Below are positions 21,505 through 37,848 of a stretch of DNA of 64,000 bases, piece after piece (position 1 is the first letter of the stretch; each line of letters starts with the position of its first letter). The stretch comes from Actinomycetes bacterium (GTDB taxonomy: Bacteria; Actinomycetota; Acidimicrobiia; Acidimicrobiales; Aldehydirespiratoraceae). The stretch covers positions 1 through 64,000 of the forward strand of contig JAJRXC010000039.1 of the NCBI GenBank assembly GCA_024276495.1. Direction: 5' to 3'. Under the pieces are notes generated by a model, which was not told the origin of the DNA, made no database searches, and saw only the letters and a program-made list of their open reading frames with translations. Both the position numbers and the translations under genes were made by a program.

Positions 21505-21595
21505 GGAAGGTTGCCAGAGCGGACGAATGGGGCGGCCTCGAAAGCCGTTGTGGCGCTTCGCGTCACCATGGGTTCGAATCCCATACCTTCCGCCA
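21505..21595 (+). tRNA. tRNA-Ser (anticodon CGA)
   Basis: The acceptor GGAAGGT pairs with ACCTTCC. The anticodon stem CGGC/GCCG encloses CTCGAAA, the long variable arm is present, and the T-arm is GGTTCGAATC. CCA is encoded at 21593-21595. Its 3' end is the apparent integration target of the islet that follows. Confidence 0.94.
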
Positions 21596-21601
21596 CGTTG
21601 T
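21590..21601 (+). repeat. Direct repeat copy 1 (CCGCCACGTTGT) at the tRNA-Ser 3' end
   Basis: The 12-mer covers the last acceptor bases, the discriminator and CCA of tRNA-Ser(CGA), plus ACGTTGT or similar following bases. Identical copies are at 24099-24110 and 25004-25015. The position in a tRNA 3' end is classic for an attachment site. Confidence 0.75.
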
Positions 21602-21622
21602 CGGATCGACAACATGACCGGA

Positions 21623-21652
21623 CACCCCGGGCCGTAAGAACGGTCCGGGGTG
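21623..21652 (+). terminator. Terminator hairpin after tRNA-Ser(CGA)
   Basis: CACCCCGGGCCGT (21623-21635) pairs with ACGGTCCGGGGTG (21640-21652) with one wobble and a 4-base loop. A diverged relative of the same hairpin occurs after repeat copy 2 near 24125-24150. Confidence 0.7.
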
Positions 21653-21696
21653 CCGGCTCTCGGGGCCGGTGCGTGACCGGCTGATGCCCACCTTCC

Positions 21697-22002
21697 TCAA
21701 CGACCACGGTCGAGCTCTACCCCGACGAGTTCCACGACACCCTCTGTCGTCTCGATCCCATGAACAACGAACGCGCGCACAAGGGCACTGCTCCCGATGA
21801 ACATTCGTGCGCTCGCGATTCCCTCGACCGCTTCCGGAAGCTCATCGAAGCCAGACGCGAACCGTTCGACGACTGCTGGGAGGTCGATGACGAGGAAGTC
21901 GGTTGCCGACGGCTCACCGGTCTGTCCCCGCACCGAGCCGAGTTGGGCGTCGAGTTCTTCGAAGAAGGCTTCGGTGACCCTGACCTCTCGGCGCGAGATC
22001 AC
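21697..22002 (-). CDS. Putative toxin of a type II-like toxin-antitoxin pair
   Basis: A 101-residue protein (GTG start) with a compact alpha/beta pattern: REVRVTEAFFEELDAQLG, then SATDFLVIDLPAVVERFA, then a strand-rich end FVVHGIETTEGVVELVGVEL. It resembles small actinobacterial proteins of RelE/ParE-like size found beside short helical partners. The start overlaps the stop of the upstream small gene as GTGA. Location in a tRNA-flanked islet supports a toxin-antitoxin reading. No catalytic residue can be named. Confidence 0.5.
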   Translation of the reverse strand: MISRREVRVTEAFFEELDAQLGSVRGQTGEPSATDFLVIDLPAVVERFASGFDELPEAVEGIASARMFIGSSALVRAFVVHGIETTEGVVELVGVELDRGR

Positions 22003-22187
22003 GAGGGATCGACGTTGAGTAGCCCTCGCTCTTCGAGGATGCGCTTGCTTTTCGCCTGGACACGGGACCGGAACACGGGATCGAGCCCATCCAGGGACCG
22101 CAGCTCATTCTCGCGAACGACGCGAGCGCGGTCGTTCGGGCTCATCGCCTCCATCTCGGAGGCCGGAATCACCCGTTCAGCAGACAC
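21999..22187 (-). CDS. Putative antitoxin partner
   Basis: A 62-residue helical, charged protein (GTG at 22185-22187), with MEAMSPNDRARVVRENELRS and FRSRVQAKSKRILEERG. This looks like the short antitoxins that pair with the neighbouring family. TATTGT on the same strand ends seven bases before the GTG, so the mRNA may be leaderless. A longer frame to 22301 exists but has a less likely N-terminus. Confidence 0.5.
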   Translation of the reverse strand: MSAERVIPASEMEAMSPNDRARVVRENELRSLDGLDPVFRSRVQAKSKRILEERGLLNVDPS

Positions 22188-22406
22188 ACCCGGACAATAC
22201 CAGGAGGAAGTGACACCCAAGACGGAGCTGATTCGAACCCGATCAGATGCGCGACACGGGCGGGCGACATGGCTCGACGTCGCGAGTTCGTCCGGCGTCA
22301 CGCTGGCGGGCAGCCCGCAAGGTCGACCAGTCCCGCTAGTAGCTCAGGCGATGGTTCTGGGGTGAGCGTAAGTTTTCCGAGATCGCAGTCGCTGCTCCGA
22401 CGCGTC

Positions 22407-23642
22407 TCAGCCGATGAACCGAGGAGCCCTCGCCCGCACGACTGCAGCGAGGTCGCCCCGGGAATCGATGATGCCACGCTCGACCGCGTCGAGAAGCGAT
22501 GCAGCCGTCCGCGCCGCGGCTTCCTGTGCACGCGTAGGATCGTGTCGCCATCGGCGGGCTTCACGGGCGATGCTGGACGAGTCGACCGCCGAAAGCGTCA
22601 CGGTCCCACCAATCGACATGGCCGCGTCGGAGACAAGTGCGTTCCACAAGACGGTGGGCACGGTGTCGTAGAGCGGCGCGAGCCGAATCGAACCGTGTGG
22701 CTCGTGGAGAAAAGCCAGGTTCTTGCCGTGAGCGTCGGCGTTCCCGATGATCGCCGTGAACGCTGCGATGGAGGCCAGCTTGTCGAGTTCGGTGGGCACG
22801 TCGCGGGCGTGAAGGTCGATCAGATCGGCCACTTGTTCGAACTCGGGCCCACCGCCCCCCTGTCGGAGCTCATACTTCGTCGACGGTGGTAGCCCGAGGG
22901 CTTGGCACATGTCCTCTTGGTGGACCCTCGCAACGTGGCCGTTCTCGCCGGGAATCCTGTCGAAACGCGACACGATGAGGCACTCGACACCAGCGACGGT
23001 CGTGAGCCGCGTCGCGATGTCGGTGAGCCCCGTGTGGCGGGCGAGAGCGAGCGCGGCCGCTTCAGCGGCGACGACGCCGGTGTGAACGCGATGATCGAGC
23101 TTAAGGATGTGCGTCGAGGGAGCGCCCGCGACTGGTCGGCCCCAGCGGCCTCCGCCGAGGTCGACGAGAAGCATCTTGTCCTGCAGCCCGGCCAACGAGA
23201 GCTCCGAGTCGTCGTGAATGCCGAGGGGTCTTTCAGGTAGAGCGGTCACCTCGGCTACAAGGTCGTCGTCAGACAGCGCGATGACACGACTACCTACGGT
23301 CGGAGGCGGCTCGTCGTCGGCCATGACAACCAACGCCCCGGCAACGTCGCGGCCATAGCGCGCCAGAAGACCGAACGTGTCCGACACGATGACCTCGGCT
23401 CGGGCTGCGAGCTCGGAACGATGAGGAGCCTCGGGCAGCACACCGTCGAAGAAGGAGGTCGCGTCGACACGCTTGGGCTGCACGGGCAACGAGCACGAGA
23501 GCAACGGGACGTTTCGGTCGTAGCGATCGAGTACGGCCGGGAGATACCGCAGATCGACGCCTCGTTGCGCGCGGTCGGTCAGTTCGGCGATCGGTTGAGC
23601 GTGCATCCAGACGACGAGCCGGTCCGGACGGTCAGACCTCAC
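22407..23642 (-). CDS. hipA: HipA family serine/threonine kinase toxin
   Basis: From the GTG at 23640-23642 the protein has 411 residues. HipA landmarks are in order: the Gly-rich/Ser loop SLAGLQDK (149-156, autophosphorylation region), THILKLD (177-183), the catalytic loop NADAHGKNL (301-309) and PLYD (323-326). HipA kinases phosphorylate glutamyl-tRNA synthetase or related targets and cause dormancy when unbound by HipB. The start overlaps hipB by 11 bases. It lies in the tRNA-Ser islet. Confidence 0.92.
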   Translation of the reverse strand: MRSDRPDRLVVWMHAQPIAELTDRAQRGVDLRYLPAVLDRYDRNVPLLSCSLPVQPKRVDATSFFDGVLPEAPHRSELAARAEVIVSDTFGLLARYGRDVAGALVVMADDEPPPTVGSRVIALSDDDLVAEVTALPERPLGIHDDSELSLAGLQDKMLLVDLGGGRWGRPVAGAPSTHILKLDHRVHTGVVAAEAAALALARHTGLTDIATRLTTVAGVECLIVSRFDRIPGENGHVARVHQEDMCQALGLPPSTKYELRQGGGGPEFEQVADLIDLHARDVPTELDKLASIAAFTAIIGNADAHGKNLAFLHEPHGSIRLAPLYDTVPTVLWNALVSDAAMSIGGTVTLSAVDSSSIAREARRWRHDPTRAQEAAARTAASLLDAVERGIIDSRGDLAAVVRARAPRFIG

Positions 23643-23907
23643 GGGCGCTCCCGTTGGGACGATCGCCCTCCGACTCCGCATCAGACGCACCGTCCCACTC
23701 GATGGTCAGCCGTGCGCCGAGCCGCCGGAGAATCCGCAGTTGATGCTCGAGCAGCGACACCGTTCGACCCGACTCGATCTTCGAGACGTACGCGTCTTCT
23801 ATTCCGGCGAGCAGCCCGACCTCCTGCTGCGTGAGGCCGGCTTCGGCGCGTACCTGTGCGATGGCACGACCGAGGTCTGCACCGCGGCGAACCTGAAACT
23901 TCTGCAC
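23632..23907 (-). CDS. hipB: HipB-type XRE antitoxin
   Basis: The 91-residue protein (GTG at 23905-23907; GTG 23937 or TTG 23964 are alternatives) carries a classic XRE helix-turn-helix: LGRAIAQVRAEAGLTQQEVG and LAGIEDAYVSKIESGR. A C-terminal tail follows (RLTIEWDGAS). It should bind and neutralise HipA and repress the operon. TATTGTCC/GGACAATA arms upstream are a candidate operator. Confidence 0.9.
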   Translation of the reverse strand: MQKFQVRRGADLGRAIAQVRAEAGLTQQEVGLLAGIEDAYVSKIESGRTVSLLEHQLRILRRLGARLTIEWDGASDAESEGDRPNGSAREV

Positions 23908-23927
23908 GACGGCTCCCGGATAGACAC

Positions 23928-23966
23928 TATTGTCCACCGTATCTCGTTTCTTGCTATCGGACAATA
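23928..23966. promoter_or_regulatory. Inverted repeat upstream of hipB
   Basis: TATTGTCC (23928-23935) and GGACAATA (23959-23966) are perfect inverted arms 23 bases apart, centred about 40 bases upstream of the hipB start chosen here. The right arm lies within CGGACAATACC, which recurs just upstream of the antitoxin gene at 22187. Confidence 0.5.
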
Positions 23967-24098
23967 CCGTCTACTTTGCCCGGTCGGTGACCGTTGACCA
24001 ATATCGGCTAGATCCCCGCCCGTCCAGGCAGCACTGGCGAGCCGGCCCGCCGAACCGTCACCGGGGCCCGAAGGGGTTCGAACGTTGTCGCATCAGGA

Positions 24099-24160
24099 CC
24101 GCCACGTTGTGAGACCCGCAACAGGACCGGGTGTCCCGGGCCGTGATGACGGTCCCGGTG
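24099..24160 (+). repeat. Direct repeat copy 2 with terminator-like extension
   Basis: CCGCCACGTTGT (24099-24110) is identical to the tRNA-Ser 3' end. The following 40-50 bases also resemble the sequence after the tRNA, including a CCCGGGCCGT...ACGGTCCCGG hairpin. Upstream, GGGGTTCGAAC recalls the tRNA T-arm. This looks like an attachment-site duplication. Confidence 0.65.
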
Positions 24161-24206
24161 CGCCATTCGAGTTTCATGCGACAGGCCTCCAGAGGACACC
24201 AATGTG

Positions 24207-24224
24207 GTATGCGAGTACTCATAC
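24207..24224. promoter_or_regulatory. Palindrome upstream of the RHH antitoxin
   Basis: GTATG-CGAGTACT-CATAC has outer inverted arms around an AGTACT palindrome and ends 19 bases before the ATG of the ribbon-helix-helix protein. Such antitoxins usually autoregulate through this kind of site. Confidence 0.45.
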
Positions 24225-24242
24225 TCCAGTTGCCATCGAAGT

Positions 24243-24545
24243 ATGACCTCGAAGAAGCAGCGCCTCACTGTGACAGTTGATCCGGAGCTGATCCAGGCAG
24301 GCCAACGCGCAGTGAGAGCCGGAGACGCCGATTCCGTCAGCGGCTGGGTCAGCGAGGCCCTCGAAGAAAAAGTCCGACGGGACCACAAGCTCTCCCTTCT
24401 CGCCGCCGCGATCAAGGACTTCGAGAGGGAGTTCGGTGAGATCACCGCCGATGAGATCGCATCCCAGCAGCGCGCCGATCGAGCAGGCGCCACCGTTGTT
24501 CGTGGCAAGCGACAATCCGCGACCCGAACAGAGAGAACCGCGTGA
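24243..24545 (+). CDS. Ribbon-helix-helix antitoxin (VapB-like)
   Basis: This 100-residue protein begins with MTSKKQRLTVTVDPELIQAG and GDADSVSGWVSEALEEKVRRD, the strand-helix-helix of RHH DNA-binding antitoxins. A helical C-terminal part (DFEREFGEITADEIASQQ) probably wraps the toxin. Its stop overlaps the next gene's GTG (GTGA). It forms a toxin-antitoxin pair with the PIN protein. Confidence 0.85.
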   Translation: MTSKKQRLTVTVDPELIQAGQRAVRAGDADSVSGWVSEALEEKVRRDHKLSLLAAAIKDFEREFGEITADEIASQQRADRAGATVVRGKRQSATRTERTA

Positions 24546-24919
24546 GCCTCGTACTCGACAGCGGAGCACGGATTTCTCTCGAGCGAAACGAGCGTGCGAT
24601 GTGGATCCGCCTCAAGGCCGCCCAGGTGGCCGGGAACCTCCCACGTACCCATGGCGGAGTACTCGCGCAGGTGTGGCGGGGCGGCCCCCGCCAGGCCCGA
24701 CTGTCCCAGGCGCTCGCAGCAATCGAGGTCCACGCCCCGGACGAGGACCTGGGTCGAGCTACCGGGCAGCTCCTCGCTGTGTCGGGGCTTTCCGATGTGA
24801 TCGGTGCTGCGGTCGTGCTGCTCGCTGAGGACAGCGACGAGATCGTGACCGTCGACCTCCGAGACCTCGAACAGCTCGCCGCTGCATCCCATCGACACGT
24901 GGAACTCATCCACCCCTGA
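24542..24919 (+). CDS. PIN-domain toxin (VapC-like)
   Basis: The 125-residue protein begins SLVLDSGARISLERNERAMW, with the first PIN acidic residue at D6, and continues through LPRTHGGVLAQVWRGG, LSDVIGAAVVLLA and DEIVTVDLRDLEQLA. That spacing fits a PIN ribonuclease. VapC toxins cut tRNA or rRNA when freed from VapB. The GTG start overlaps the antitoxin stop. The pair occupies the segment between repeat copies 2 and 3. Confidence 0.85.
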   Translation: MSLVLDSGARISLERNERAMWIRLKAAQVAGNLPRTHGGVLAQVWRGGPRQARLSQALAAIEVHAPDEDLGRATGQLLAVSGLSDVIGAAVVLLAEDSDEIVTVDLRDLEQLAAASHRHVELIHP

Positions 24920-25003
24920 CCCCCACCTGCTCCGTTCGACCACCCCAAAGGCGCTCGAGCCACACAAGAACGGGCGCCCTCGGGATTGCACGTCGTGTCG
25001 GAA

Positions 25004-25015
25004 CCGCCACGTTGT
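25004..25015 (+). repeat. Direct repeat copy 3 (CCGCCACGTTGT)
   Basis: The third exact copy of the tRNA-Ser 3'-end 12-mer, preceded by GGAA (compare GGA before copy 2). It bounds the right side of the VapBC-like segment. Confidence 0.65.
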
Positions 25016-25028
25016 CTGCCCACCGGTG

Positions 25029-25135
25029 TCAAGTCTTCGACGAATCGCCTTCCATGATCGCGGTGACCGCCTTGCGTCCAATCCCGGATACCTCAGCGAG
25101 CTGCCGCAGCGACGCTCCGGCACGGTGGGCGACCC
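25029..25135 (-). pseudogene. Helix-turn-helix fragment
   Basis: Read leftward, the frame gives AHRAGASLRQLAEVSGIGRK and AVTAIMEGDSSKT, then TGA at 25029-25031. This is a convincing HTH of the resolvase or small-regulator kind, but no start codon is in frame before the upstream gene's stop. It is probably the leftover end of a regulator or recombinase from the islet. Confidence 0.4.
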
Positions 25136-25179
25136 TGGGTTGGTCGCCGCAGATAGAAGGTGGGCCACGGAATGGCTGA

Positions 25180-25686
25180 CTACCGCTCGTTGCCCCGTTT
25201 GCGCCGAAGCCGTCCGGTCATGAGGCGCCGCACGTTCACCAGGGCGATCCCGCCGAGCACCGGCACGATCGCGAAACTCCCGAGCACCATGAGCCCGAAG
25301 CCGATGTTCGCTCCGTGCACCGCCGCCGTGGCAATGCGGTACCCGAAACCGAGGTACGCGGCGACCGCCGCGCAGGGGGCGAGCACTCCGAGCCACTCTC
25401 GACGGATGCGACCAGCGCTGAGGCTGTCGAGGAGCACCGCCAACCCGCCGAGAACGGCGACGAGCGACACGAGTCCGATCGCGAGTGTCTGCGACCCGGA
25501 GAGATTCGGGGGCCGAACCGCGTAGTCTGCGTACTGACGTCGATCAGCGGGTATCTCGTCGGGGATCGAACCCGCGACCCACCAGGTCAACGGAGTGACC
25601 GCGACCACGCCGACGCCGACCACGATCCTTTCGAGCGCACCCGGTTTCGCCACGACTCCCCGATCTCCGACCCGCCTGCGTTGCAC
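25180..25686 (-). CDS. Four-helix membrane protein, unknown
   Basis: A 168-residue protein (GTG start) with predicted helices at IVVGVGVVAVTPLTWWVAG, TLAIGLVSLVAVLGGLAVLL, LAPCAAVAAYLGFGYRIATA and GLMVLGSFAIVPVLGGIALV, plus a very basic C-terminus (RRLMTGRLRRKRGNER). No motif is recognised. It lies just outside the repeat-bounded islet. Confidence 0.65.
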   Translation of the reverse strand: MQRRRVGDRGVVAKPGALERIVVGVGVVAVTPLTWWVAGSIPDEIPADRRQYADYAVRPPNLSGSQTLAIGLVSLVAVLGGLAVLLDSLSAGRIRREWLGVLAPCAAVAAYLGFGYRIATAAVHGANIGFGLMVLGSFAIVPVLGGIALVNVRRLMTGRLRRKRGNER

Positions 25687-25735
25687 ATGTTGTCATCCCG
25701 GATGGCTGACATCGATCGAGCCGGAAGACGGGGTC

Positions 25736-26464
25736 GTGGCCTGGGAGGTCGCTGTGACCGCCTGCCGGCTCGAAGTCGAAAACCATGCCGGGTCGGCGCC
25801 CGTGGACGACCATGATGTCGTCGTGGTCACCAAGAGCCGGCTCCGGGTTGCCGTCGACGCAGCGTTCGCCGAAACCGGAGATGGGCTGGCCCAGTGGCCC
25901 GACCCCCATCTGGACCGATCACCGCGCAACGAGGAGTACTCGCGGCTGACCAACCCCGGGAAATGGCGGATCATCGGCGCCCGCGCCGACGCCTGGCTCA
26001 TCGCGATCGCCGATCTCGGTCTGGCCGAGGTCGAACGAGGCGCCCCAGTCCGGTGGCGGCGGGAGCCGGGACCGATGATCACCGGCACCGACCTCATCGT
26101 GCCGTTCGCGAAGGGTGCGCTCACACTGGTTGTCGCTCGCAGCCAACTCGCCACCATCGCCGACGCGGGAATCCTGCTGGGCGTCGGTGATCCGGTCGGC
26201 TGCGTGACGTGGGTACCCGGCTGCGGATGCGACGCCTGCGACAGCGGTTCACAAAACGAGCTCGATGAGCTCGATGCCCACATCCTCGGTGTCGTGTCGG
26301 GCGCGTTCCGTCGGCTGTCCGCCGGCAACCGGGAGATCACCGTGATCGGCGAAGGCGGATGGAGTGCTTCCAACCTGTCCGGCCGAGACGAGGTCGACAC
26401 GATCCTCGACGATCCGAAGGGTTGGGACGAGATCAGTGGCGCCTCGTGGCTGAATCGGCCCTAA
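25736..26464 (+). CDS. DUF6226-like protein
   Basis: From a GTG at 25736 the frame gives 242 residues; the true start is uncertain. The body has WPDPHLDRSPRNEEYSRLTN, KWRIIGARADAW and a distinctive CGCDACDSGSQNELDELDAH. I associate this pattern with the DUF6226 family of Actinobacteria; function is unknown. The cysteine pattern CGCDAC could bind metal. It converges with the frameshifted gene at 26496. Confidence 0.65.
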   Translation: MAWEVAVTACRLEVENHAGSAPVDDHDVVVVTKSRLRVAVDAAFAETGDGLAQWPDPHLDRSPRNEEYSRLTNPGKWRIIGARADAWLIAIADLGLAEVERGAPVRWRREPGPMITGTDLIVPFAKGALTLVVARSQLATIADAGILLGVGDPVGCVTWVPGCGCDACDSGSQNELDELDAHILGVVSGAFRRLSAGNREITVIGEGGWSASNLSGRDEVDTILDDPKGWDEISGASWLNRP

Positions 26465-26495
26465 GATCCCACGGGCCGACCCGGACCAACGCATG

Positions 26496-26847
26496 TCAGC
26501 GTTCGTGGCGCGCCTTGAGCTTCTCGAGCTCCCGAGCCATCGAGTCGAGGCCGTCGGCCAGTCGGCGTCGCTTTGACCGGGAAAGCGGGCCAGGGTGTAC
26601 AGCACATCGGCTCCGCCGGCGTTGGGGATGACCCGCACCGGGAGCGGCGGGCCGTAGGGGGCATCCAGGGGGCCATGTAGACGTCGATGCGGCCGGAATC
26701 GACATCGGCGTCGATCCGCATCCGGGCCTTGCCGCCGATTCGTGGCACGGTCACCTCCACCTCACCCTCGCCGATCGGTGTGGCGGCGCCCGAGAAGAAC
26801 TCGGTCGCCCATTCGGGCTGCATGGCCGGGTCGGCGAGGTCCGACAC
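26496..26847 (-). pseudogene. Small protein gene split by two single-base deletions
   Basis: Three leftward frames join into one sensible 117-residue protein: SDLADPAMQPEWATEFFSG to RIDVYMAP, then VRVIPNAGGADVLYTLARFP to SDADW, then ADGLDSMARELEKLKARHER. The first break is at a run of five G (26668-26672 on the plus strand) where six would keep the frame; the second is near 26558 at GGCC. Adding two bases gives exactly 118 codons. It is either a recent pseudogene or sequence error. Function is unknown. Confidence 0.7.
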
Positions 26848-26883
26848 GACCTCGGCGAACCGTTTCCGTCACAAGGGTTGTCA

Positions 26884-27268
26884 TGACTTCGACCAGGCGC
26901 TGCTCGCCGCCCTGGGCGACCGGCTGAGCGTGAACCTCACCTCGGCACAGCCGCTGCTGTTCGCCGAGCTACCACTGAAGGGCGCCCGCCAATCCGAGCT
27001 GGCTCGCGCCCTCGGAGTCAGCCGGCAGGCGATCAACGAACTGGTCGGAGCACTCCAGAGACTGGGCCTCGTCGAGGTCGTCCCGGATCCGGAGAGCGGC
27101 AGATCCAAGCTGATTCGCCCCACCGAACGAGGTCGCGACAGCATCCGTGTCGCAAGGAACGTGTTCGCCGAACTGGAAACGGAACTACGCCACCGGATCG
27201 GCAGCCGCACCGTCGATCAACTCCGCAACGGCCTCGATGCCGAGTGGGGAACCCCACGCCAGCCGTAG
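26884..27268 (+). CDS. MarR family regulator with a disrupted start
   Basis: The reading frame from 26882 gives FDQALLAALGDRL, a winged helix (RQSELARALGVSRQAINELV, LGLVEVVPDPESGRSKLIRP) and a dimerisation helix, about 128 residues. No suitable start is in this frame: the ATG at 26884 is one frame off, and a single missing base right after it would restore ATG-x-FDQALL. The next in-frame ATG (26822) overlaps the divergent gene. It may share the deletion pattern of its neighbours. Confidence 0.65.
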
Positions 27269-27312
27269 CCGGCGACCCTCGCTGCCCGTACGGGCGCACC
27301 CGGGTAGGCCCG

Positions 27313-27686
27313 TCAGGAGCCGGTCTCGGCGCGGGTCATGATCTCCCACAGGTGCGGGTCGGGGCCTCCGACGAAGTAGACGCCACGTCCCCCCGACGGC
27401 GGTTGATCTCGCCGTCGTCCGCGGAGAGCGGTCCACTCCCGAACGACGCGGCCGACGTCGTGATCCGGGCGAGGATCCCGTCGAACTCGTCTTCACCGAC
27501 GAGGAAGGCGTAGTGCTCGCTCGACACGTCGGCGTGTGTCTCGAAGTCGAGGGTGAGCGAGTCGTTGACCCTGACAGCTGCGAAGTGGCCTTTGTGCTCC
27601 GGCTCGAGGTCGAAGATCCGGCCGAAGAACGCGGCGCCGGCGCGATTGTCGTTCGATGGGACGATGACGTGGTCGAGGATGATCAT
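27313..27686 (-). pseudogene. VOC family protein with a one-base deletion
   Basis: From the ATG at 27684-27686 the frame gives IILDHVIVPSNDNRAGAAFF, FDLEPEHKGHFAAVRV and LDFETHADVSSEHYAFLV, a glyoxalase/dioxygenase-type fold. After INRRRG it goes out of frame. One extra base in the run of six C at 27389-27394 would restore RGVYFVGGPDPHLWEIMTR and a stop at 27313, the normal VOC ending (124 residues). The family role, small-molecule binding or resistance, is undefined. Confidence 0.75.
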
Positions 27687-27733
27687 TGCCCGCAGCCTCC
27701 GAGGCAAGATTTGACAACAGCAGTCTTGCAGAA

Positions 27734-28249
27734 TTATCGCACAGGCGCGACGTCGGTGACCGAGAGCCGTCCGGAGATGTCGGCGCAGCGCGCACACACC
27801 GACGCCGGCACCAGCCCGAGCCGCATCATCCAGGCGAACGCGACGCACCCGAGACAGATGCCGACGAAGGCCTCGAGCGACGCGGCGATCAGCACGAGGG
27901 CGACGAGCGCCGTTGCGATGCCGGTCGCCCCGAATCCGAAGTGGGCGATCGCGGCTCCCACCGACAGCGTCGCGCCGATGCCCTGGGCGAACCGCTTCGG
28001 CGGGCCCGGTACGAGTCGGGGTCGCACGGCCAGGCGCGGGGTGACGACTCGGGTGACGAACTGGCCCAGTGGGCTCAGCGTCGGGCCGGTCGTCACCCGG
28101 GCGACGAAGCCGAACGCGAGTGGGGCGATGACCCAGGGTTGTCGGGCGGCGACGATCACGAGGGACATGGCCACCACACCGCCGGCCACCAACCGGGCCG
28201 ACACCTCGTTGACGGGGTCCGGGAACTCGAAGAGCGTCGATCTTGACAT
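27734..28249 (-). CDS. DUF4395 family membrane protein
   Basis: At 171 residues this shows the DUF4395 pattern: FPDPVNEVSARLVAGGV at the start, PRLVPGPPKRFAQGIGA in the middle and EAFVGICLGCVAFAWMMRLG with a CxxC-like pair near the end. Four helices are predicted. DUF4395 proteins often accompany thioredoxin or sulfur-transfer genes; none is adjacent here. A palindrome lies 9 bases upstream of the start. Confidence 0.85.
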   Translation of the reverse strand: MSRSTLFEFPDPVNEVSARLVAGGVVAMSLVIVAARQPWVIAPLAFGFVARVTTGPTLSPLGQFVTRVVTPRLAVRPRLVPGPPKRFAQGIGATLSVGAAIAHFGFGATGIATALVALVLIAASLEAFVGICLGCVAFAWMMRLGLVPASVCARCADISGRLSVTDVAPVR

Positions 28250-28257
28250 GACGAGAT

Positions 28258-28271
28258 ATTATCCCGATAAT
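28258..28271. promoter_or_regulatory. Palindrome ATTATC-CC-GATAAT upstream of DUF4395
   Basis: Perfect 6-base arms around CC, in an AT-rich patch. On the minus strand GATAAT sits where a -10 box could be, with the ATG 9 bases on, so the site could be both promoter and operator. Confidence 0.45.
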
Positions 28272-28291
28272 TCCGATCAGACTACTCGGCT

Positions 28292-28399
28292 TTATATGTC
28301 ATCCGCCGCCAGAACCAAGACGGGGATCTCCCGCTCCGTGCTCGCCACGTGGGCGGACATGCCCGGAAGGGTCACGGCGAGACGCTCGAGCAGCGCCAT
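28292..28399 (-). pseudogene. C-terminal fragment resembling a deazaflavin-dependent nitroreductase
   Basis: A 35-codon leftward frame reads LLERLAVTLPGMSAHV and TEREIPVLVL before TAA. This recalls the terminal W-x-x-L...P...Yq..T.R.IPVvvL segment of F420-dependent nitroreductases (DDN family). A TGA immediately precedes the ATG and nothing upstream continues the match. Likely a relic; the similarity is by eye only. Confidence 0.3.
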
Positions 28400-28439
28400 T
28401 CATTCGTTGCAGCCGACGGACCCCGGTCGCAACAATGGC

Positions 28440-29123
28440 TCAGCGAGCGAGCAACGCCTCGAGATCAGTGAGGTCCCGTATCTCATGATCGGCTTCGCCC
28501 CGAAACCCGGGGTCGGCCCCGTCACGATTGACGTAGACCGACGTGGCGCCGACACGGTTGGCCCCCACGACGTCGTCCCAGTCGTCACCCACGTGGACGA
28601 GACAGCCGGGTTCCACGCCGAGGCCGGCGGCGACCATCTCGAACGCCCGCGGGTCGGGCTTTTCGAATCCGTGGTCGGGCCCGAGGACGACGACATCGAA
28701 CACGCCGGGAAGGCCACATCGTTCCGGGTAAGTGTTGCCGTTGCTCAACAAGCCGATCCGGTGGGTCCGCTTCACGCGAACAAGCACGTCGCGGACCTCG
28801 GGAAAGAGACGGATCTGATCGAACCGGACGTCGAGGAAGATCTCGAGCAGCTCATCGGCGGCGGCATCGGCTCGTGCATGGCCCGCCTGATCGAGCACCA
28901 ATCGGAAGGACTGCCGCCGCACCTCCTCGAGACGATGAGGACGTCCCCGGAATCCCTCGACGACCTCCGCGCGGGCGTCGATCAACGCGGCGACGTCGAG
29001 CGAGCCGGCCGCGACGTCGCCTCGCTCGACCATCACCGCGATCGTCGCCTCCAGAGCCCGCTCCTGGACCCCCCGGAAATCCCAGAGCGTCTGATCGGCA
29101 TCGAAGCTGAGCGCGCTCAACAT
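28440..29123 (-). CDS. HAD superfamily hydrolase
   Basis: A 227-residue HAD phosphatase: MLSALSFDADQTLWDF (motif I), LLSNGN (motif II), EKPDPRAF (motif III lysine) and HVGDDWDDVVGANRVGAT (motif IV). A helical cap is inserted after motif I. It would dephosphorylate a small metabolite or act as a dehalogenase; the substrate is not evident. Its start overlaps the stop of the lipoprotein gene. Confidence 0.9.
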   Translation of the reverse strand: MLSALSFDADQTLWDFRGVQERALEATIAVMVERGDVAAGSLDVAALIDARAEVVEGFRGRPHRLEEVRRQSFRLVLDQAGHARADAAADELLEIFLDVRFDQIRLFPEVRDVLVRVKRTHRIGLLSNGNTYPERCGLPGVFDVVVLGPDHGFEKPDPRAFEMVAAGLGVEPGCLVHVGDDWDDVVGANRVGATSVYVNRDGADPGFRGEADHEIRDLTDLEALLAR

Positions 29124-29704
29124 CGGGCGAGCGACTCCCGGCTCACAGCGACATGGAGACCGGCGTGACCGGCGTATTCGATCACCGTCTCGAACGACGC
29201 CGTCTGGGTCAGCGTCGCCCAGCCGACGATGCGCATCGGGTGTGAGGGGAGCGAGGGGAAGGTGTTGTTGTCCGGCGCCCACTCGTCGATCGCGGCGGCC
29301 AGCACCGACCAGCGGCCGACGGGATCATCCCAGTCGCCACCCAGCACGTCCCGGCGCACACACTCGGCGGTACCGAACGTGTCGAGCACGATTCCCGGCG
29401 GCGTGCCCGACGGGCCGGGAAGGAACCCCTCGGCGACCGCTCCCGCGACCTCGCCATCGCCGTCCCGGTCGCCGTAGCCGAGCCCACCGGGCCCCACGAC
29501 CAGGTTGGCCGCGGCCTCGGCGTGGCCTCGCGCTTCCTCCAAGGTCGACGACGCCGCCCACGCGTCGACCTCCGCGGCGATCTGCTCCAACCGATCGACC
29601 GCGATGCCCCCGGGTGCGCCCCACGGCTCCTGCGTGGTGGCCGAATCGTCGCCACCTCCGCACGCCGACGCGAGCAGCGCGAGGACCAGCACGACATGTC
29701 GCAT
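29117..29704 (-). CDS. Predicted lipoprotein, unknown function
   Basis: At 195 residues it has a lipoprotein signal (RHVVLVLALLASAC, lipobox LASAC) followed by a GGGDDSATT linker. The mature part has YGDRDGDGEVAG, a possible calcium-binding loop, and cysteines in AECVRRDVLGG. No family is recognised. The last codons overlap the HAD gene by 7 bases, so they are co-transcribed. Confidence 0.75.
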   Translation of the reverse strand: MRHVVLVLALLASACGGGDDSATTQEPWGAPGGIAVDRLEQIAAEVDAWAASSTLEEARGHAEAAANLVVGPGGLGYGDRDGDGEVAGAVAEGFLPGPSGTPPGIVLDTFGTAECVRRDVLGGDWDDPVGRWSVLAAAIDEWAPDNNTFPSLPSHPMRIVGWATLTQTASFETVIEYAGHAGLHVAVSRESLARC

Positions 29705-29761
29705 CCTCCGAGTATGGCCGACGGCGTCACGATGTCGGACCCGACGGCGGCCCGTGATCCG

Positions 29762-29974
29762 TCAGTCGTCGTCAGCGAAGTTCGCCATGTCGAGGCCGGC
29801 GCGAGACGACCGGCCCCGACCCGACAGCACCACCGCGCGAACCGTCGGATCCTCGGCGATCGAGCGGGCTGCGTCTCCCAAGGCCTCCATCAACTCACCG
29901 TTGAGCGCATCCTGGCGATCAGGGCGGGCCGGCCGCACATGGGCGATGTTGTCGTCGATCGTCAGCTCGAGCAC
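29762..29974 (-). pseudogene. N-terminal fragment of an enoyl-CoA hydratase/crotonase
   Basis: A 70-residue frame (GTG at 29972-29974) reads MLELTIDDNIAHVRPARPDR, LNGELMEALGDAARSIAEDP and VRAVVLSGRGRSSRAGLDMAN, then stops. Crotonases run to about 260 residues and need the second oxyanion strand and C-terminal helices, all absent here. GRSSRAG replaces the usual GRSFCAG. This is a truncated pseudogene. Confidence 0.75.
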
Positions 29975-30012
29975 GGGGCGATCCTACGGTTTCCGGCCCG
30001 GTCGCCGGGTCG

Positions 30013-30894
30013 TCAACGCTCGCCGCTCCTGACCAGGTTCGGGTCGATCTCCCGCATGACGCCCTCCTGAGCCACCGACGCGAGATGCACGCCACTGCGG
30101 TCGTAGACCGCGCCGAGCGCAAACCCACGGGCGCCGGCCGCGCTCGGGCTGTGTTGGTGGTACAGCAGCCAGTCGTCGACCCGGACCGGTCGATGGAACC
30201 AGACCGCGTGGTCGAGGCTGGCCAGCATCACGCCCGGCGACCCCGCGCGACGGTGCGGGCGGTGCATGTTGTCGACGAAGGCGATGTCGGAGGCGTAGGT
30301 CAGCAGCTGGGCGTGGACATCGGGATCATCGGGCACATCGCCGTTGGCCCGCAGCCACACCGGGTTGGGTTCCGTGCTCGGCTCCGAGGAGAACATGCCG
30401 TGGGGCAGCGCCGAACGGATGTCGATCGCCCGCTCCTGCAGCATCCAGTCGCGTCGCTCCTCGGGGATGTCGTCGATGACCGCCCGCGCCCGCTCCTCCC
30501 AGGTCGGCAGCTCCTCAGGCCCGGGCACATCGGGCATCTGCGCCTGATGATCGAAGCCCGCCTCGACCCGATGGAACGAGATCGAGGTGTTGAAGATCGC
30601 CTTGCCGTCCTGGAGGGCGACGACTCGGCGCGTGGTGAACGAGGCGCCGTCGCGGATGCGGTCGACGGTGTAGACCACCGGGACCGACGGGTTGCCGCCC
30701 CGCAGGAAGTAGCCGTGCAACGAGTGGACCGGGTATCCGTCGACGGTGCGCTGGGCGGCCGCCAACGCCTGGGCGGCGACTTGGCCACCGAACAACCGGG
30801 CCCAGTCGGATGCCTCGTTCGATCCCCGGAAGATGTCGGCATCGATCCGTTCGAGGTCGAGTACATCGAGCAGTTGGTCGAGCGCGGTCCCCAT
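30013..30894 (-). CDS. tesB: Acyl-CoA thioesterase II (TesB family)
   Basis: A double-hotdog protein of 293 residues from the ATG at 30892-30894 (GTG at 30903 is possible). FRGSNEASDWARLFGGQVAAQAL and SLHGYFLRGGNPSVPVVYTV mark the first hotdog; LASLDHAVWFHRPVRVDDWLLYH marks the second with the catalytic aspartate. It hydrolyses medium- to long-chain acyl-CoA in the cytosol. It sits upstream of the crotonase fragment on the same strand, perhaps once a fatty-acid operon. Confidence 0.93.
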   Translation of the reverse strand: MGTALDQLLDVLDLERIDADIFRGSNEASDWARLFGGQVAAQALAAAQRTVDGYPVHSLHGYFLRGGNPSVPVVYTVDRIRDGASFTTRRVVALQDGKAIFNTSISFHRVEAGFDHQAQMPDVPGPEELPTWEERARAVIDDIPEERRDWMLQERAIDIRSALPHGMFSSEPSTEPNPVWLRANGDVPDDPDVHAQLLTYASDIAFVDNMHRPHRRAGSPGVMLASLDHAVWFHRPVRVDDWLLYHQHSPSAAGARGFALGAVYDRSGVHLASVAQEGVMREIDPNLVRSGER

Positions 30895-30975
30895 CGCGGG
30901 CACGGTATCGCCGTGGGGCCCGGCCCGAACCGAAACCCCGCCCCATGGCCGTCACCGCGGGCGTAGAGTCCCGAG

Positions 30976-31206
30976 ATGCCCAGTTCCGAGACGTTGCTCC
31001 TGTTCTCCGGCGCCGCCCTGACCGCCCTGGGCACGACGTTCGTCGTGCTGGGCCTCGTCACCGACGGTCTCTACGCGCTGGCCGCGGGATGGATCGGCGG
31101 ACGGCTGCGCCGATCCCCGACCCTGACGCACCGCTCGGAGACCGCGGCCGGAGTCACCTATCTCGGACTCGGCCTCACGACCGCCTTGTCCGGCAACCCC
31201 CGCTGA
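30976..31206 (+). pseudogene. LysE-like transporter C-terminal fragment or small membrane protein
   Basis: A 76-residue frame has two membrane segments: ALTALGTTFVVLGLVTDGLYALAAG and TAAGVTYLGLGLTTALSG. The order (V-x-D-G-L-Y-A-L-x-A-G ... G-x-x-Y-L-G-L-G) is that of the last third of LysE/RhtB exporters, which are about 205 residues. Only 72 bases separate it from the divergent tesB, so the first two-thirds is gone. A functional small protein cannot be excluded. Confidence 0.55.
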
Positions 31207-31209
31207 CCC

Positions 31210-31590
31210 ATGAGCCGTACACCCCTGACCAGCAGCCAGGCCACCGCCATCGGGCCCTACAGCCACGGCATCGACACCGGGTCGCTGATCCTGTGCTCCG
31301 GACAGACCCCTCTCGACCCCGCCACCGGCGAGCTTCGACGCGGCGGCGTCGGCGCCCAGACCCACCAGTGTCTCGACAACCTCTTCGCGGTGCTCGACGA
31401 CGCCGGACTCGGCCCCGACGATGTCGTGAAGGTCAACGTGTATCTCACCGATATGGCCGATTTCGCCGCGATGAACGAAGCCTACGCCAGCCGGTTCGAG
31501 CCGCCGTTTCCGGCCCGGACCACCATCGCCGTTGCCGGGTTGCCCCTCGATGCCACCATCGAGATCGAGCTCGTCGCTCGACGTCGCTGA
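31210..31590 (+). CDS. ridA: RidA family deaminase
   Basis: At 126 residues this is a standard RidA: AIGPYSHGIDTGSLILCSGQ, LDNLFAVLDDAGLGPDDVVKVNVYLTDM (spread over 55-83), and the terminal substrate motif PARTTIAVAGLPLDATIEIELVA, containing the arginine that holds the carboxylate. It hydrolyses reactive enamine/imine intermediates from PLP enzymes. It follows the LysE-like fragment by three bases. Confidence 0.93.
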   Translation: MSRTPLTSSQATAIGPYSHGIDTGSLILCSGQTPLDPATGELRRGGVGAQTHQCLDNLFAVLDDAGLGPDDVVKVNVYLTDMADFAAMNEAYASRFEPPFPARTTIAVAGLPLDATIEIELVARRR

Positions 31591-31624
31591 CCTCGCGCGA
31601 CACCTCCCGATGCCGCGCCCCCGC

Positions 31625-32086
31625 TCATCGGGCCCTCGTCGGTTCGACCAGGGGCCGCCGGAGAGAGTCGACGATCAGGAAGGCAACCGCCACTCCGGCC
31701 GCGTAGTGGACGAAGTCGTCCCACCGAAAGCCCCGCCCGAGGAATAGCGCGGCCACCTCGTTGCCTCGCAGGCGGACCAGCCAGTCGGGCTGCCACAGCT
31801 GCGACAACTCCACCGCGACCGAGAAGCCCAGGCCGGTGGCACAGAGCCGGAACGACGACCACACCGGCCGGACCAGGGCGAGCGCGAGCACGACAGCGGT
31901 GGACCACAACACGTCGCCGGTGTGTTCGATGACGAACCCGGGCAGGGAGTGCACCCGACGCGACGCCAGGCCGGCGACGAGCACCGCACCGAGCACCGCC
32001 GCGCACCGGCGGCCGGGGATCACGTCTGCGACCCGTCCCGGCCGGGGGCCCGGGCCCGCGAACCGGCCATCGGAAACGTCGGACAC
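31625..32086 (-). CDS. DUF2809 family membrane protein
   Basis: A 153-residue protein from the GTG at 32084-32086. It has about four helices and the hallmark ending NEVAALFLGRGFRWDDFVHYAAGVAVAFL, with FSVAVELSQLWQPDWL before it. These are VanZ/DUF2809-like features. It begins four bases after the stop of the MBL-fold gene and is the last gene of that leftward operon. Function is unknown. Confidence 0.8.
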   Translation of the reverse strand: MSDVSDGRFAGPGPRPGRVADVIPGRRCAAVLGAVLVAGLASRRVHSLPGFVIEHTGDVLWSTAVVLALALVRPVWSSFRLCATGLGFSVAVELSQLWQPDWLVRLRGNEVAALFLGRGFRWDDFVHYAAGVAVAFLIVDSLRRPLVEPTRAR

Positions 32087-32090
32087 GATC

Positions 32091-33815
32091 TCAGCCCCTG
32101 AACCCGGGATGGTCGAAGCACGCGACGACCCGATCGATCCGATCCCGGTCACCGCCGGCCACCACTGTCCCCTCGTCGATGGCCGCGTCGATCGAGAGAC
32201 GGCCGGAACAGACCGTCGCCCACGTCTCGAGGCCGAGCGCGAGCTCCAACTCCGCGCCGTCGCCGCGGGTCGGGACCGCGACGTGGTTGCGAACGTGAAG
32301 GCCGGCGGTGGCGCCATCGGAGAATCGCCACCGCAGCTCGTCGTCGACGCCGGTGGCCGCGGCCGGGTCGAGCAGCACCCGCAGGGCGTGGACCGTGATC
32401 GCCGGGTCGGCCCCGAGCACGGCCGCCCGGCCGAAGACGTGCACCCGCATCCGGTCGAGGTCGAGGGTCCCTTCGATCTCGAGGGCCCGGGTCAGGCACC
32501 AGTTGCGGATGTTGGCTGCGGAGGAACGTCGACCGATCTCCCGGAGCGCCTCGGCCAGCAGGGAACGATCGTCGTCGCTGGAGAGGTTCTCGCCCTCGGC
32601 GTCGGTGCGACGGACCAGCCACGACCCCATCTCGACCGCCCACCGCAGGTCGTTGTCGTCGATCGCGTCGCGCACCGCGGCCCGCACCGTCTCGGCGCCA
32701 CCGAAACCCTCGACCAGCCGACCGGCCCGGTCGCCGGGCGGCAACGGGAAGAGGTCGGCTTCGTCGCCGTCGAACCAGCCGACGAGGCCGGCGTGGATCT
32801 GTCGCACGTGATGCTCCGCAACACCGTAGAGCTGACGGGTCAACCGACCGGTGTCGTACATCGCGGGAAGCTGAACGAACTCGCCGAGCTCCGCGCTTCG
32901 CAGATCCTTGTTGATGCCCCGCACGGTCTGGTCCCACATGAACTGGATCGAGTCACGATCGAGGGTGACCTCGCGGATGATGTCGGCCCGCCCGCTGAAC
33001 GGTGGACCATGGGTGCAGACCATGTGCTCGGGTTCGAGCCCGAGGATGTGATCGAGCCCCTCCAGCACGATCCGGGGATCTCGATACGGTTCCCCGCGGA
33101 TGGCGAAGACGTTGAACAGCGCCGGCCACGCGAGGTTGTGCACACAGGTCTCCAGTTCGGGAAACCAGATCGTCAGCGAGTCGTCGGCGTCGGACGGGGC
33201 CGGGGTCATCTCCACCCGCAACCCGGCCAGCTCGACGGTCGTCGCCGTGTCGAGCGTGTGCGTCGGCACGACGAAACCGAAGTCGTGGGGGGCGTGGTCG
33301 TCTCGGCGGAAGCTCTGCCCGAGGCCGACGTTGATCAAACCGTCGGGCCCCTCCTTCGGAAGGAACAGGCCGAACTGGTGCACCGCACCGCGAGTGGCCG
33401 ATGCGCTGAGCTCGACACCGGTGCGTTGCCGATTCGCGACGATTCGGGAATGACCCCACACCGGCACCGACTCGCCGGCCCCGGCAACCGCGGTGGTCCC
33501 TCCGACATAGTGCGAATGGGTGTAGATCACCGCCACGATGGGCGCGTCGGTCGCCGCGCCGATCGCGTCGATCGACCAGGCCATCTCCTGGATCGACTCG
33601 CCCGTGTCGATCGCGATCAGCCCCTCGGGGCCTTCGACGAACACCTGGTTGGAGAGCCCGTTGCCGACGACGCACCACACCCCGTCGCGTACCCGGTGCA
33701 CGGCTCGTTCGAACCGGGCCGTGTGCTCGACCGTGTCGCGGTGACCGAGTTGGCCGGCGGCGGCGGTCACGACGACCGAGGGGTCGTCGGAGAAGCTGGC
33801 CGGGATCCGGTTCAT
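32091..33815 (-). CDS. Alkylsulfatase-like metallo-beta-lactamase fold protein
   Basis: The 574-residue protein has an N-terminal MBL domain (VGNGLSNQVFVEGPEGLIAIDTG, VVAVIYTHSHYVGGT), a central helical dimerisation part (LRWAVEMGSWLVR, YDTGRLTRQLYGVAEHH) and a C-terminal SCP2-like sterol-binding domain. That is the SdsA1/BDS1 layout for alkyl sulfate hydrolysis. The expected HxHxDH motif is reduced to H100-S-H102-YVGG, so zinc binding may differ. It is co-directional with the SMP-30 gene 13 bases upstream. Confidence 0.85.
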   Translation of the reverse strand: MNRIPASFSDDPSVVVTAAAGQLGHRDTVEHTARFERAVHRVRDGVWCVVGNGLSNQVFVEGPEGLIAIDTGESIQEMAWSIDAIGAATDAPIVAVIYTHSHYVGGTTAVAGAGESVPVWGHSRIVANRQRTGVELSASATRGAVHQFGLFLPKEGPDGLINVGLGQSFRRDDHAPHDFGFVVPTHTLDTATTVELAGLRVEMTPAPSDADDSLTIWFPELETCVHNLAWPALFNVFAIRGEPYRDPRIVLEGLDHILGLEPEHMVCTHGPPFSGRADIIREVTLDRDSIQFMWDQTVRGINKDLRSAELGEFVQLPAMYDTGRLTRQLYGVAEHHVRQIHAGLVGWFDGDEADLFPLPPGDRAGRLVEGFGGAETVRAAVRDAIDDNDLRWAVEMGSWLVRRTDAEGENLSSDDDRSLLAEALREIGRRSSAANIRNWCLTRALEIEGTLDLDRMRVHVFGRAAVLGADPAITVHALRVLLDPAAATGVDDELRWRFSDGATAGLHVRNHVAVPTRGDGAELELALGLETWATVCSGRLSIDAAIDEGTVVAGGDRDRIDRVVACFDHPGFRG

Positions 33816-33827
33816 GGCGGCCCCTTC

Positions 33828-34748
33828 TCAGCGGTGATGGGCGAGCTCGAGACCGGGCCGCGGCCAGTCGATCGCGACGAGCACGCCGGTACCGGACAGC
33901 GTGCAGTAGGCGAGCGGCTCGGCACCGGCGAAACAGATGTTGGTGACGAGCAGGTCGGGCAGGGGAAGATGGTCGAACTGCTCACCGTCGGGGGAGATCG
34001 AGGTGATGCCACCGTTGCCGAGGGTGCCGACACACACCCAGCCGTCGCCGTCGACGGCCAGGGAGTCGAACAGGGTCTGACCGGCGGCACCGTGGAGGAG
34101 CTCACCACCGCCCGCGCCGATCGGGTTCGAGGCCTCGACCTCACCGGGCGCCGTCACGTTCCACGCCCACACCCGGCCGGTGTGGGTCTCCGCCGCGTAC
34201 AGACGGGATCCGTCGGGTGAGAGACCGATGCCGTTCGGCGCGTCGAGAGGATGCACGACTTCGACGCACGAGGATCCATCGGCGCTCGCGTAGTGGAGCC
34301 CGGTACGGTCGCTCGTTCGGTCGAGCCGCACACCGTGGTCGGTGAACCAGAACCCGCCGTGCCCGTCGAAGACGAGATCGTTGGGCGCGCGCAGGGGACC
34401 GCTGCTGCTCTCGGTGTACAGCGTCTCGAACACGCCGGTGTCGGAGTCGACCCGCTGGATCGACCCTCCGGTCCACTCCGGCGGCACCGGACCGGGGATG
34501 GTCATCCCCATGACCTCGTCGAAGCGGAAGCAACCCCCGTTGTTGGTGATGTACACCGCCCCGTCGGGGCCGATCGCGGCACCGTTGGGGCCGCCACCGA
34601 GATCGGCGACGACTGCCACCGTGCCGTCGGGGTTCACCCGGCTCAACGTTCCCCGGGCGATCTCGACGAGCAGCACGCTCCCGTCGTCGAGGGCGATCGG
34701 GCCCTCGGGAAACTGCAGGCCGGTTGCGATGGTTCGGATCTCCGTCAT
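33828..34748 (-). CDS. SMP-30/gluconolactonase family protein
   Basis: A 306-residue six-bladed propeller from the ATG at 34746-34748. LQFPEGPIALDDGSVLLVEI provides the metal glutamate, RAPNDLVFDGHGGFWFTD the asparagine and substrate residues, and APNGIGLSPDG a repeated blade. It would hydrolyse a sugar lactone or similar ester using Ca2+/Zn2+. It forms an operon with the MBL and DUF2809 genes and is divergent from hisE. Confidence 0.9.
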   Translation of the reverse strand: MTEIRTIATGLQFPEGPIALDDGSVLLVEIARGTLSRVNPDGTVAVVADLGGGPNGAAIGPDGAVYITNNGGCFRFDEVMGMTIPGPVPPEWTGGSIQRVDSDTGVFETLYTESSSGPLRAPNDLVFDGHGGFWFTDHGVRLDRTSDRTGLHYASADGSSCVEVVHPLDAPNGIGLSPDGSRLYAAETHTGRVWAWNVTAPGEVEASNPIGAGGGELLHGAAGQTLFDSLAVDGDGWVCVGTLGNGGITSISPDGEQFDHLPLPDLLVTNICFAGAEPLAYCTLSGTGVLVAIDWPRPGLELAHHR

Positions 34749-34785
34749 GGAGCGCACCCTAAGTCGTGCCCAGCCCTAGCGTGTA

Positions 34786-35067
34786 GTGGTGATTCTCGAC
34801 GAACTCGAAGAAGTGCTCCGATCGCGGCGGACCGCGAGCCCGGAGGAGTCCTACACGGCCCGACTGCTCGCCGATCCGGAGCTTATCCAACGCAAGATCA
34901 TGGAGGAGGCGTTCGAGGTCTGCCTCGAGTTGGCCCGTGACCCCAACGACCCCACCCTCTCCGCGCAGGAAGCCGCCGACCTCCTCTATCACCTCCTCGT
35001 CGGCCTGGTCTCGGCCGACGTGGCGCTTCGCGACGTGCTCGCGGTGTTGGAAGCACGTCGATCATGA
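34786..35067 (+). CDS. hisE: Phosphoribosyl-ATP diphosphatase
   Basis: A 93-residue all-helical MazG-type protein: SYTARLLADPELIQRKIMEE, AFEVCLELA and QEAADLLYHLLVGL give the EExxE/ExxD metal motif. It hydrolyses PR-ATP to PR-AMP, the second step of histidine synthesis. GTG at 34786 or 34789. Its stop overlaps hisG by 4 bases. Confidence 0.95.
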   Translation: MVILDELEEVLRSRRTASPEESYTARLLADPELIQRKIMEEAFEVCLELARDPNDPTLSAQEAADLLYHLLVGLVSADVALRDVLAVLEARRS

Positions 35068-35909
35068 GTGCCCGGGTGGCAGTCCCTTCCAAGGGTCGAC
35101 TCCGAGATTCGGTCTTCGACCTGCTTCGCCATGCCGGCTACAACCTCCGCGGCCTGGGCTCGGAGAACGCGGCGGTCGTGGTCGAGGACATCGAGTTCAT
35201 CGAGATGCGGCCCCGCGATGCCGCGGCCTGGCTCCGGGCCGGTCGGCTCGACGCCGCGTTCATCTCCACCGACACGGCCCTCGAGAACGAGATCGAGGAC
35301 TGGCCCGCGATCACCCTCGGCTTCTCCCGATCCGATCTCGTGCTGGCCTGCCGCACCGATGCGCCCCACACCGGCGCGAAGGACCTGGCCGGCAAGACCG
35401 TGGCAACCCATCTTCCGAACTGGACCCGGCGCTGGTTCGACGAGAAGAACGTGAGCATCGACGTCGTCGCGATGGGAGGCTCGCTCGAAGGAATCTGCGC
35501 CCGTGGCCTCGCCGATGCCATCGTCGACTTGCGTGAGACCGGCAACAGCCTCGCCCGAAACTCACTCCACGCGATCGAGCAGGGTCCCGCCTGTGAGGCA
35601 ATCTTCGCCCGCCGACCGCTCGAGACCAATCGTGAGGTGGACGACCTGCTCCTGCGGATGGAAGCGGCGCGCACCGCCACCACTCGGCAGTACCTGGTGC
35701 TGCACATCTCACCGGACAAGGTCACCGACCTCGGCACGATCTTCCCCGGCCTCGAGGCCCCGACCATCGTGCCCCTCTCGGGTCGCACCGATCTCGTCGC
35801 GGTACATCTCGTCGTCCGGCGCGAGAACCTCTGGGCCCGGCTCGGCGATCTCCGGGCGCTCGGCGCAACCGGAATCGTCGCCCTGCCGACCGACGCGATC
35901 CTCGAGTAG
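35064..35909 (+). CDS. hisG: ATP phosphoribosyltransferase (long form)
   Basis: At 281 residues this is the long, HisZ-independent form with a C-terminal ACT-like regulatory domain. It starts RVAVPSKGRLRDSVFDLLRHAG, has MGGSLEGICARGLADAIVDL binding PRPP and a C-terminal LHISPDKVTDLGTIFPGLEAP. It catalyses the committed step of histidine synthesis and is feedback-inhibited by histidine in this form. hisE-hisG form an operon here without other his genes. Confidence 0.95.
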   Translation: MSARVAVPSKGRLRDSVFDLLRHAGYNLRGLGSENAAVVVEDIEFIEMRPRDAAAWLRAGRLDAAFISTDTALENEIEDWPAITLGFSRSDLVLACRTDAPHTGAKDLAGKTVATHLPNWTRRWFDEKNVSIDVVAMGGSLEGICARGLADAIVDLRETGNSLARNSLHAIEQGPACEAIFARRPLETNREVDDLLLRMEAARTATTRQYLVLHISPDKVTDLGTIFPGLEAPTIVPLSGRTDLVAVHLVVRRENLWARLGDLRALGATGIVALPTDAILE

Positions 35910-37844: not shown

Positions 37845-37848
37845 GCCA

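Follow-up and report, generated by a model that had tools for sequence, protein, structure and literature searches.

A tRNA-Ser(CGA) gene (21505..21595, + strand) lies in the 64,000-nt stretch analysed here, the window, which is part of contig JAJRXC010000039.1 of the genome of an environmental actinobacterium of the class Acidimicrobiia (GCA_024276495.1, 4.33 Mb, G000 in our genome set). The gene is followed by an islet of toxin-antitoxin (TA) type genes and by further copies of its own 3' end. Outward from the tRNA, the islet holds a TA-like pair, hipBA and an RHH/PIN-like pair before host sequence is reached, and the first junction between these units is decayed. The tRNA was called with ARAGORN and Rfam, and protein families were searched in Pfam, NCBIfam, PADLOC and PDB sequences. 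The arrangement appears to consist of small cassettes without an integrase, at least two and probably three of them, stacked at the tRNA 3' end, and we put at about 0.6 the probability that such stacked cassettes are moved by a large serine integrase (LSI) supplied by another element.

The 12-mer CCGCCACGTTGT occurs exactly at 21590, 24099 and 25004, all on the + strand, as the initial annotation had reported. The whole genome holds six copies, and the other three are scattered on other contigs, lack an adjoining tRNA or hairpin and look like chance matches, so the repeat is not common elsewhere. By our own estimate, this background would place two extra copies on a single strand inside 3.4 kb with a probability of the order of 1e-6. 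The repeat had been described as the tRNA 3' end; this holds for CCGCCA (ARAGORN places the end at 21595), but CGTTGT is the start of the following sequence. Copies 1 and 2 are also homologous downstream over 59 nt (76% identity, E 1.3e-5). This stretch contains the tRNA's downstream hairpins, and the diverged terminator hairpin proposed to follow copy 2 is indeed there, as the sole significant second match genome-wide. Copy 3 shares just the 12-mer and, with copy 2, a weakly similar upstream stretch.

Cassette 1a (~0.66 kb, 21592..22253, + strand) carries the TA-like pair. Its left end (21592..21656, +) consists of GCCACGTTGT, a hairpin at 21597-21613 and a terminator-like hairpin at 21618-21656; it is common to G026, a genome of another genus, and diverged in copy 2 and in genome G014. 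The putative toxin (101 aa, 21697..22002, - strand) overlaps by 4 nt at its start with the gene of the putative antitoxin (~62 aa, or 100 aa from an upstream start; 21999..22187, - strand). The pair (21697-22187) matched no family in Pfam, NCBIfam or PADLOC, and the toxin also had no match among PDB sequences. Of 149 genomes, 27 have homologues of the toxin, often several each, and at least 9 of the 20 loci examined also have the antitoxin gene next to that of the toxin, showing co-conservation. The cassette closes in a decayed right end, GATTCGAACCCGATCAGATGCGCG (22230..22253, +), where G026 has GGTTCGAACGCTGTCGCATCGGGA. G026 carries a homologous element of the same extent, with the tRNA on one side and a well preserved right end on the other. 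The initial annotation placed this pair and hipBA in one segment, and both are present; however, because the homology to G026 stops at 22238, inside the decayed right end, this segment is probably two cassettes.

Cassette 1b (~1.85 kb, 22254..24098, + strand) would then extend from the decayed end, which sets its left boundary, to the right end at copy 2. It encodes a hipA-family toxin (22407..23690, - strand; PF07804 E 2.5e-42, PF13657 E 1.6e-13) and a hipB-family antitoxin (23632..23964, - strand) that matches helix-turn-helix families, with TIGR03070 at E 1.1e-9, below its cut-off. The annotation of hipBA is thereby upheld by both Pfam and NCBIfam, and this is the unit in which an operon of known type II toxin and antitoxin families is present. 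The right end (24075..24100, +) has a P-type half-site, GGTTCGAACGTTGTCGCATCAGGA, followed by CC, with 24 nt from octamer start to CC. The identical 24-mer ends the cassette in G014, and its exact 19-mer core was found in four records only among 84,980 genomes, including G014 and G026.

Cassette 2 (~0.9 kb, 24101..25003, + strand) is bounded by copies 2 and 3. Its left end (24101..24163, +) again has GCCACGTTGT, a hairpin at 24106-24122 and a terminator-like hairpin, in the 59 nt that are similar to copy 1. The RHH-like antitoxin gene (24234..24545, + strand) and the PIN-like toxin gene (24542..24919, + strand) are named from sequence motifs, which agree with the earlier assignment; the pair had no Pfam match, the antitoxin matched NF041551 at E 2.9e-5, below its cut-off, and the toxin had no match among PDB sequences. 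The outermost junction is a degenerate right end, TCGGGATTGCACGTCGTGTCGGAA then CC (24980..25005, +), with the exact 12-mer at 25004. It retains GTC and the GGA/CC surroundings, and the T-loop motif is gone. Beyond the islet, 25015-42800 gave only patchy matches in related genomes, up to a conserved block near 42.8 kb, so the variable stretch that follows this tRNA may extend beyond the islet itself.

The well preserved right ends share a fixed geometry. In the tRNA, the T-loop octamer GGTTCGAA (21571-21578, +) starts 19 nt before CC (21590-21591), the proposed exchange dinucleotide, and the two would form a B half-site. In every well preserved cassette right end the same octamer starts 24 nt before CC, so that these ends close in GGTTCGAA-N16-CC, the tRNA half-site plus 5 bp. 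The plainest case is G002, of the window's genus, where GGTTCGAA-AGACA-TCCCATCGCTT-CC closely resembles what the tRNA has, GGTTCGAA-TCCCATACCTT-CC, with 5 bp added. When spacing was left open in ~181 kb of sequence downstream of the same tRNA at 20 related loci, three of nine octamers stood exactly 24 nt before CCGC and the other spacings occurred once each. By reading, G014 and G026 add two octamers 24 nt before a mutated CCGC. LSIs bind an outer motif whose distance from the centre is 5 bp greater in attP than in attB (PMC3783163). The spacings of 24 and 19 nt, as read from the sequences, match this shift.

The sequence downstream of the same tRNA varies freely among the 20 loci. Some genomes of the same genus, such as G003 and G004, have a plain terminator after it, which are the empty sites that one would look for in relatives. 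Others have cassettes of 0.7-1.2 kb with different cargo. The G014 element (1.07 kb) encodes a VapBC-like pair and terminates in the window's own 24-mer; G015 has a 1.2-kb YceI+MarR-like cassette between 50-bp exact repeats of tRNA end and terminator; G002 has a 0.7-kb cassette with one small ORF. The gene names for G014 and G015 come from reading the translations, not from family searches. In G026, 677 bp holding the TA-like pair are 95% identical to window 21563-22238, against just 65-75% in core blocks, and the element terminates in GGTTCGAACGCTGTCGCATCGGGACCCCCA. Beyond the right end, G014 and G026 have the same flank (1,325 bp, 84%), but they differ in cargo. The relatives are therefore not syntenic without variation, since cargo at the site differs between them, and the mobility of the modules and their stacking at the tRNA, both proposed in the initial annotation, are well supported.

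Right ends were also found across the order. A pattern scan allowing mismatches, with the 24-nt spacing fixed beforehand, matched in 23 of 397 genomes, including further families of the order, and a reversed control pattern had no match in the table. Some low-scoring matches are chance, and many of the matches, though not all, are real right ends. Arrays are present in several genomes: G236 has PIN/RHH-like units that start after a partial tRNA-Ser, G407 has an ABC transporter and a PIN/RHH-like unit, and G263 and G318 have arrays as well. G263 and G161 have a 1,134-bp cassette in common (92.7%), which ends at the right end in G263, and their left ends differ. In G126 a cassette end follows tRNA-Val and closes in CCAC, as tRNA-Val does. 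Tandem cargo-less units follow tRNA-Ser(GGA) in G444 (~107 bp) and G278 (~103 bp). On G444 contig C92 (6520-6945, locus reversed) four such units lie directly after the tRNA, mostly 98-100% identical, each consisting of two hairpins and a right end. G444 contig C149 carries several partial 3' halves of tRNA-Ser, most of which have a hairpin unit behind them, and remnants of a tyrosine recombinase lie in between; a tyrosine recombinase inside the cassettes was considered, and a remnant among these partial copies was all that was found. Symmetric transposon ends were rejected, as clear inverted repeats occur in G236 only and most left ends lack them. Phage carriers were rejected as well, since exact right-end patterns had no true match in IMG/VR; the one match lies in a coding region without a tRNA or recognised integrase.

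No integrase family was found among the window ORFs tested, in agreement with the initial annotation. The nearest tyrosine recombinase to the islet is at 60.0 kb in the window, where tRNA-Ala(TGC) is followed by a weak PF00589 match (40.7 bits, 60020-60547, within 59311-60547); the 3' end of this tRNA has no repeat of at least 12 nt elsewhere in the window. Across the order, LSI genes are found at tRNA 3' ends. Of 18 genomes examined, 8 have PF07508 genes, most of which lie at tRNA 3' ends and antisense to the tRNA, and a search with one LSI returned relatives in 41 of 397 genomes, with most of the 30 loci returned adjoining a tRNA. At loci L189 and L192-L201 the LSI gene is antisense to the adjoining tRNA gene and its reading frame reaches or enters that gene, so that its C-terminal tail can be tRNA-encoded. 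The tRNA-targeting LSIs have resolvase, recombinase and zinc ribbon domains, and their nearest NCBIfam families are CcrB, XisF and CcrC, all below cut-off. Most of their loci have a conserved inverted motif, TTCGAAC, after CCA, giving the half-site CCA-N10-12-TTCGAAC. The right ends of most LSI elements were not located within the contig stretches examined; the sole element mapped at both ends, at tRNA-Val in G243, has the same geometry as the cassettes, 24 nt versus 19.

In G318 an LSI half-site follows immediately on the right end of the last cassette, GGTTCGAA-N16-CC-N15-TTCGAAC, so that one and the same position serves both cassettes and LSI elements. The junction adjoins an LSI C-terminal fragment, which is matched by our LSI profile and not by Pfam, and a similar remnant lies at tRNA-Ser(TGA) of this genome. 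In G021 an LSI-type half-site directly follows tRNA-Ser(CGA), with no convincing LSI from 0 to ~+1950 after the tRNA; an LSI element probably once occupied this site and left the half-site behind.

Taken together, a cassette starts right after the tRNA's CCGC with a hairpin and terminator able to replace those of the tRNA, carries a small gene unit (here of the TA type) and closes in a copy of the tRNA half-site (GGTTCGAA ... CC) lengthened by 5 bp. The sequences show the cassettes and their ends, turnover of cargo at a single site, arrays, cassettes common to different genera, and a family of tRNA-targeting LSI elements of matching geometry. In the proposed reaction, exchange at the CC dinucleotide by a tRNA-targeting, CcrB-related LSI that another element supplies would convert tRNA-half.X and P-half.Y into tRNA-half.Y and P-half.X. 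The action of an enzyme in trans was part of the initial annotation, and the geometry now points to an LSI. Since no LSI was found in G000 and the left ends lack a canonical LSI half-site, we infer the enzyme, and likewise its action in trans and a circular intermediate.

Several observations weigh against movement by an LSI. PF07508 has no match anywhere in G000; a resident LSI was thus not found, and the islet lacks the integrase gene expected of an LSI-borne integrative element. Several other cassette-bearing genomes also lack a PF07508 match. Decay has affected both copy 3 and the 1a/1b boundary, and the independent cases of the 24-nt spacing are limited to G000, G014 and G026, found by homology, and the open-spacing scan. 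Scored with a matrix built from LSI P' halves, the left ends do about as well as random sequence, and a canonical P' half was not found. P and P' thus do not flank the exchange point, except at the G318 junction, where P' comes from the LSI remnant. Without a P' half, the circular site of a cassette would be P.X and not a canonical attP, and unless a directionality factor is present, attP with attB is the only pairing that recombines (PMC3783163). Because these published rules forbid unaided recombination of P.X with tRNA.Y, three possibilities follow: an enzyme that tolerates such a pair, the presence of a helper, or an origin of the cassettes as scars that homologous recombination has reshaped. 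A more far-reaching reading, which we hold to be less likely than not, is a tRNA-anchored gene-cassette system in Acidimicrobiia whose cassettes, with a single (P) half-site, integrate and excise by the same reaction (B.X with P.Y), perhaps with no directionality factor.

If the cassettes are scars, successive full LSI elements (integrative and conjugative or mobilizable elements) lost their integrase and left end by deletion, leaving cargo beside right junctions, and homologous recombination between repeated terminators swapped and amplified the pieces. The LSI remnants beside cassette ends in G318, the G021 half-site and the near-identical tandem units of G444, which resemble amplification, would fit such a history. 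It accounts poorly for the G026 and window copies, which share the left end besides the cargo, the G026 copy having an intact right end. The clean 50-bp repeat at both ends of the G015 cassette also speaks for discrete units, as does the finding that G014 and G026 differ in cargo within identical surroundings, and decay from full elements seems rather unlikely to us as the explanation.

A tyrosine recombinase might instead move site-specific modules in trans, either host Xer, as for dif modules, or the integrase of an integrative and conjugative element. Recombinase-less TA modules moved by XerCD are of a known kind, and tyrosine recombinases were present in all eight genomes searched; G278, which has cassette ends, gave one match only. 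The overlap exchanged by tyrosine recombinases is usually 6-8 bp, so the ~4 nt of shared sequence at the exchange point count against them, as do the +5 spacing, which fits serine integrases, and the G318 junction, where a cassette half-site is paired with an LSI half-site; this makes a tyrosine recombinase distinctly improbable. Chance repeats within a vertically inherited TA cluster could be proposed, given that the 12-mer is short and that its third copy has almost no further similarity. This idea is already contradicted by the 95% identity between genera, the cargo swap of G014 and G026 and the varied cargo at the site, and the genome-wide rarity of the 12-mer and the right-end motifs in many genomes make it extremely improbable.

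The nearest described system is that of the Dehalococcoides ssrA genomic islands, where a CcrB-like integrase acts, islands accrete in tandem, and integrase-less members are read as cis-mobilizable elements (CIMEs; PMC3146451). Like those islands, the LSI elements and cassettes involve a CcrB-related serine recombinase at the 3' end of an RNA gene, boundary direct repeats, tandem accretion and integrase-less members, and at attL the integrase gene contains a repeat of the RNA gene. Unlike the much larger islands at tmRNA, the cassettes lie at tRNA-Ser (once tRNA-Val), are mostly 0.7-1.9 kb with the ~107-bp cargo-less units as an extreme, and are dominated by TA or single-function genes. As in the accretion model for CIMEs, they have no integrase or transfer genes, are stacked in tandem at one site and have att-like flanks, at least as judged for the right ends; the left junction is a terminator with no recognisable element half-site. 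The staphylococcal cassette chromosome (SCC) is comparable through the NCBIfam affinities of the LSIs, differing in that its target is a protein gene and its elements are far larger. Composite arrays and ccr-less members are known among SCC elements, which use Ccr serine recombinases. The dif modules of Acinetobacter plasmids are likewise recombinase-less, often TA, and moved by an enzyme in trans, but theirs are XerCD sites on plasmids, with no tRNA target and a different site sequence; the cassette ends have no dif-like dyad on inspection, and the genome's own dif site was not located. Integron gene cassettes also form arrays of small promiscuous units in which TA genes are common. Integron-like sites were nevertheless rejected here because no attC-type layout was recognised (no search was aimed at an integron integrase), and gene orientation is mixed. 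What appears novel is the combination of very small size, a tRNA-Ser target, a left end formed by a terminator together with only one, shifted half-site, and TA cargo. No paper describing such cassettes was found in the literature searched, which is not proof that none exists.

In our judgement these cassettes would be among the smallest recombinase-less mobile units described. They indicate that single TA units can be shuffled between genera without a transposase of their own, and the tRNA half-site shifted by 5 bp provides a simple signature for detecting such cassettes. It also becomes testable whether a serine integrase accepts substrates with one half-site, which bears on integrase directionality. 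If the single-half-site reading is true, arrays would grow and shuffle much like integrons, with a serine integrase acting in trans.

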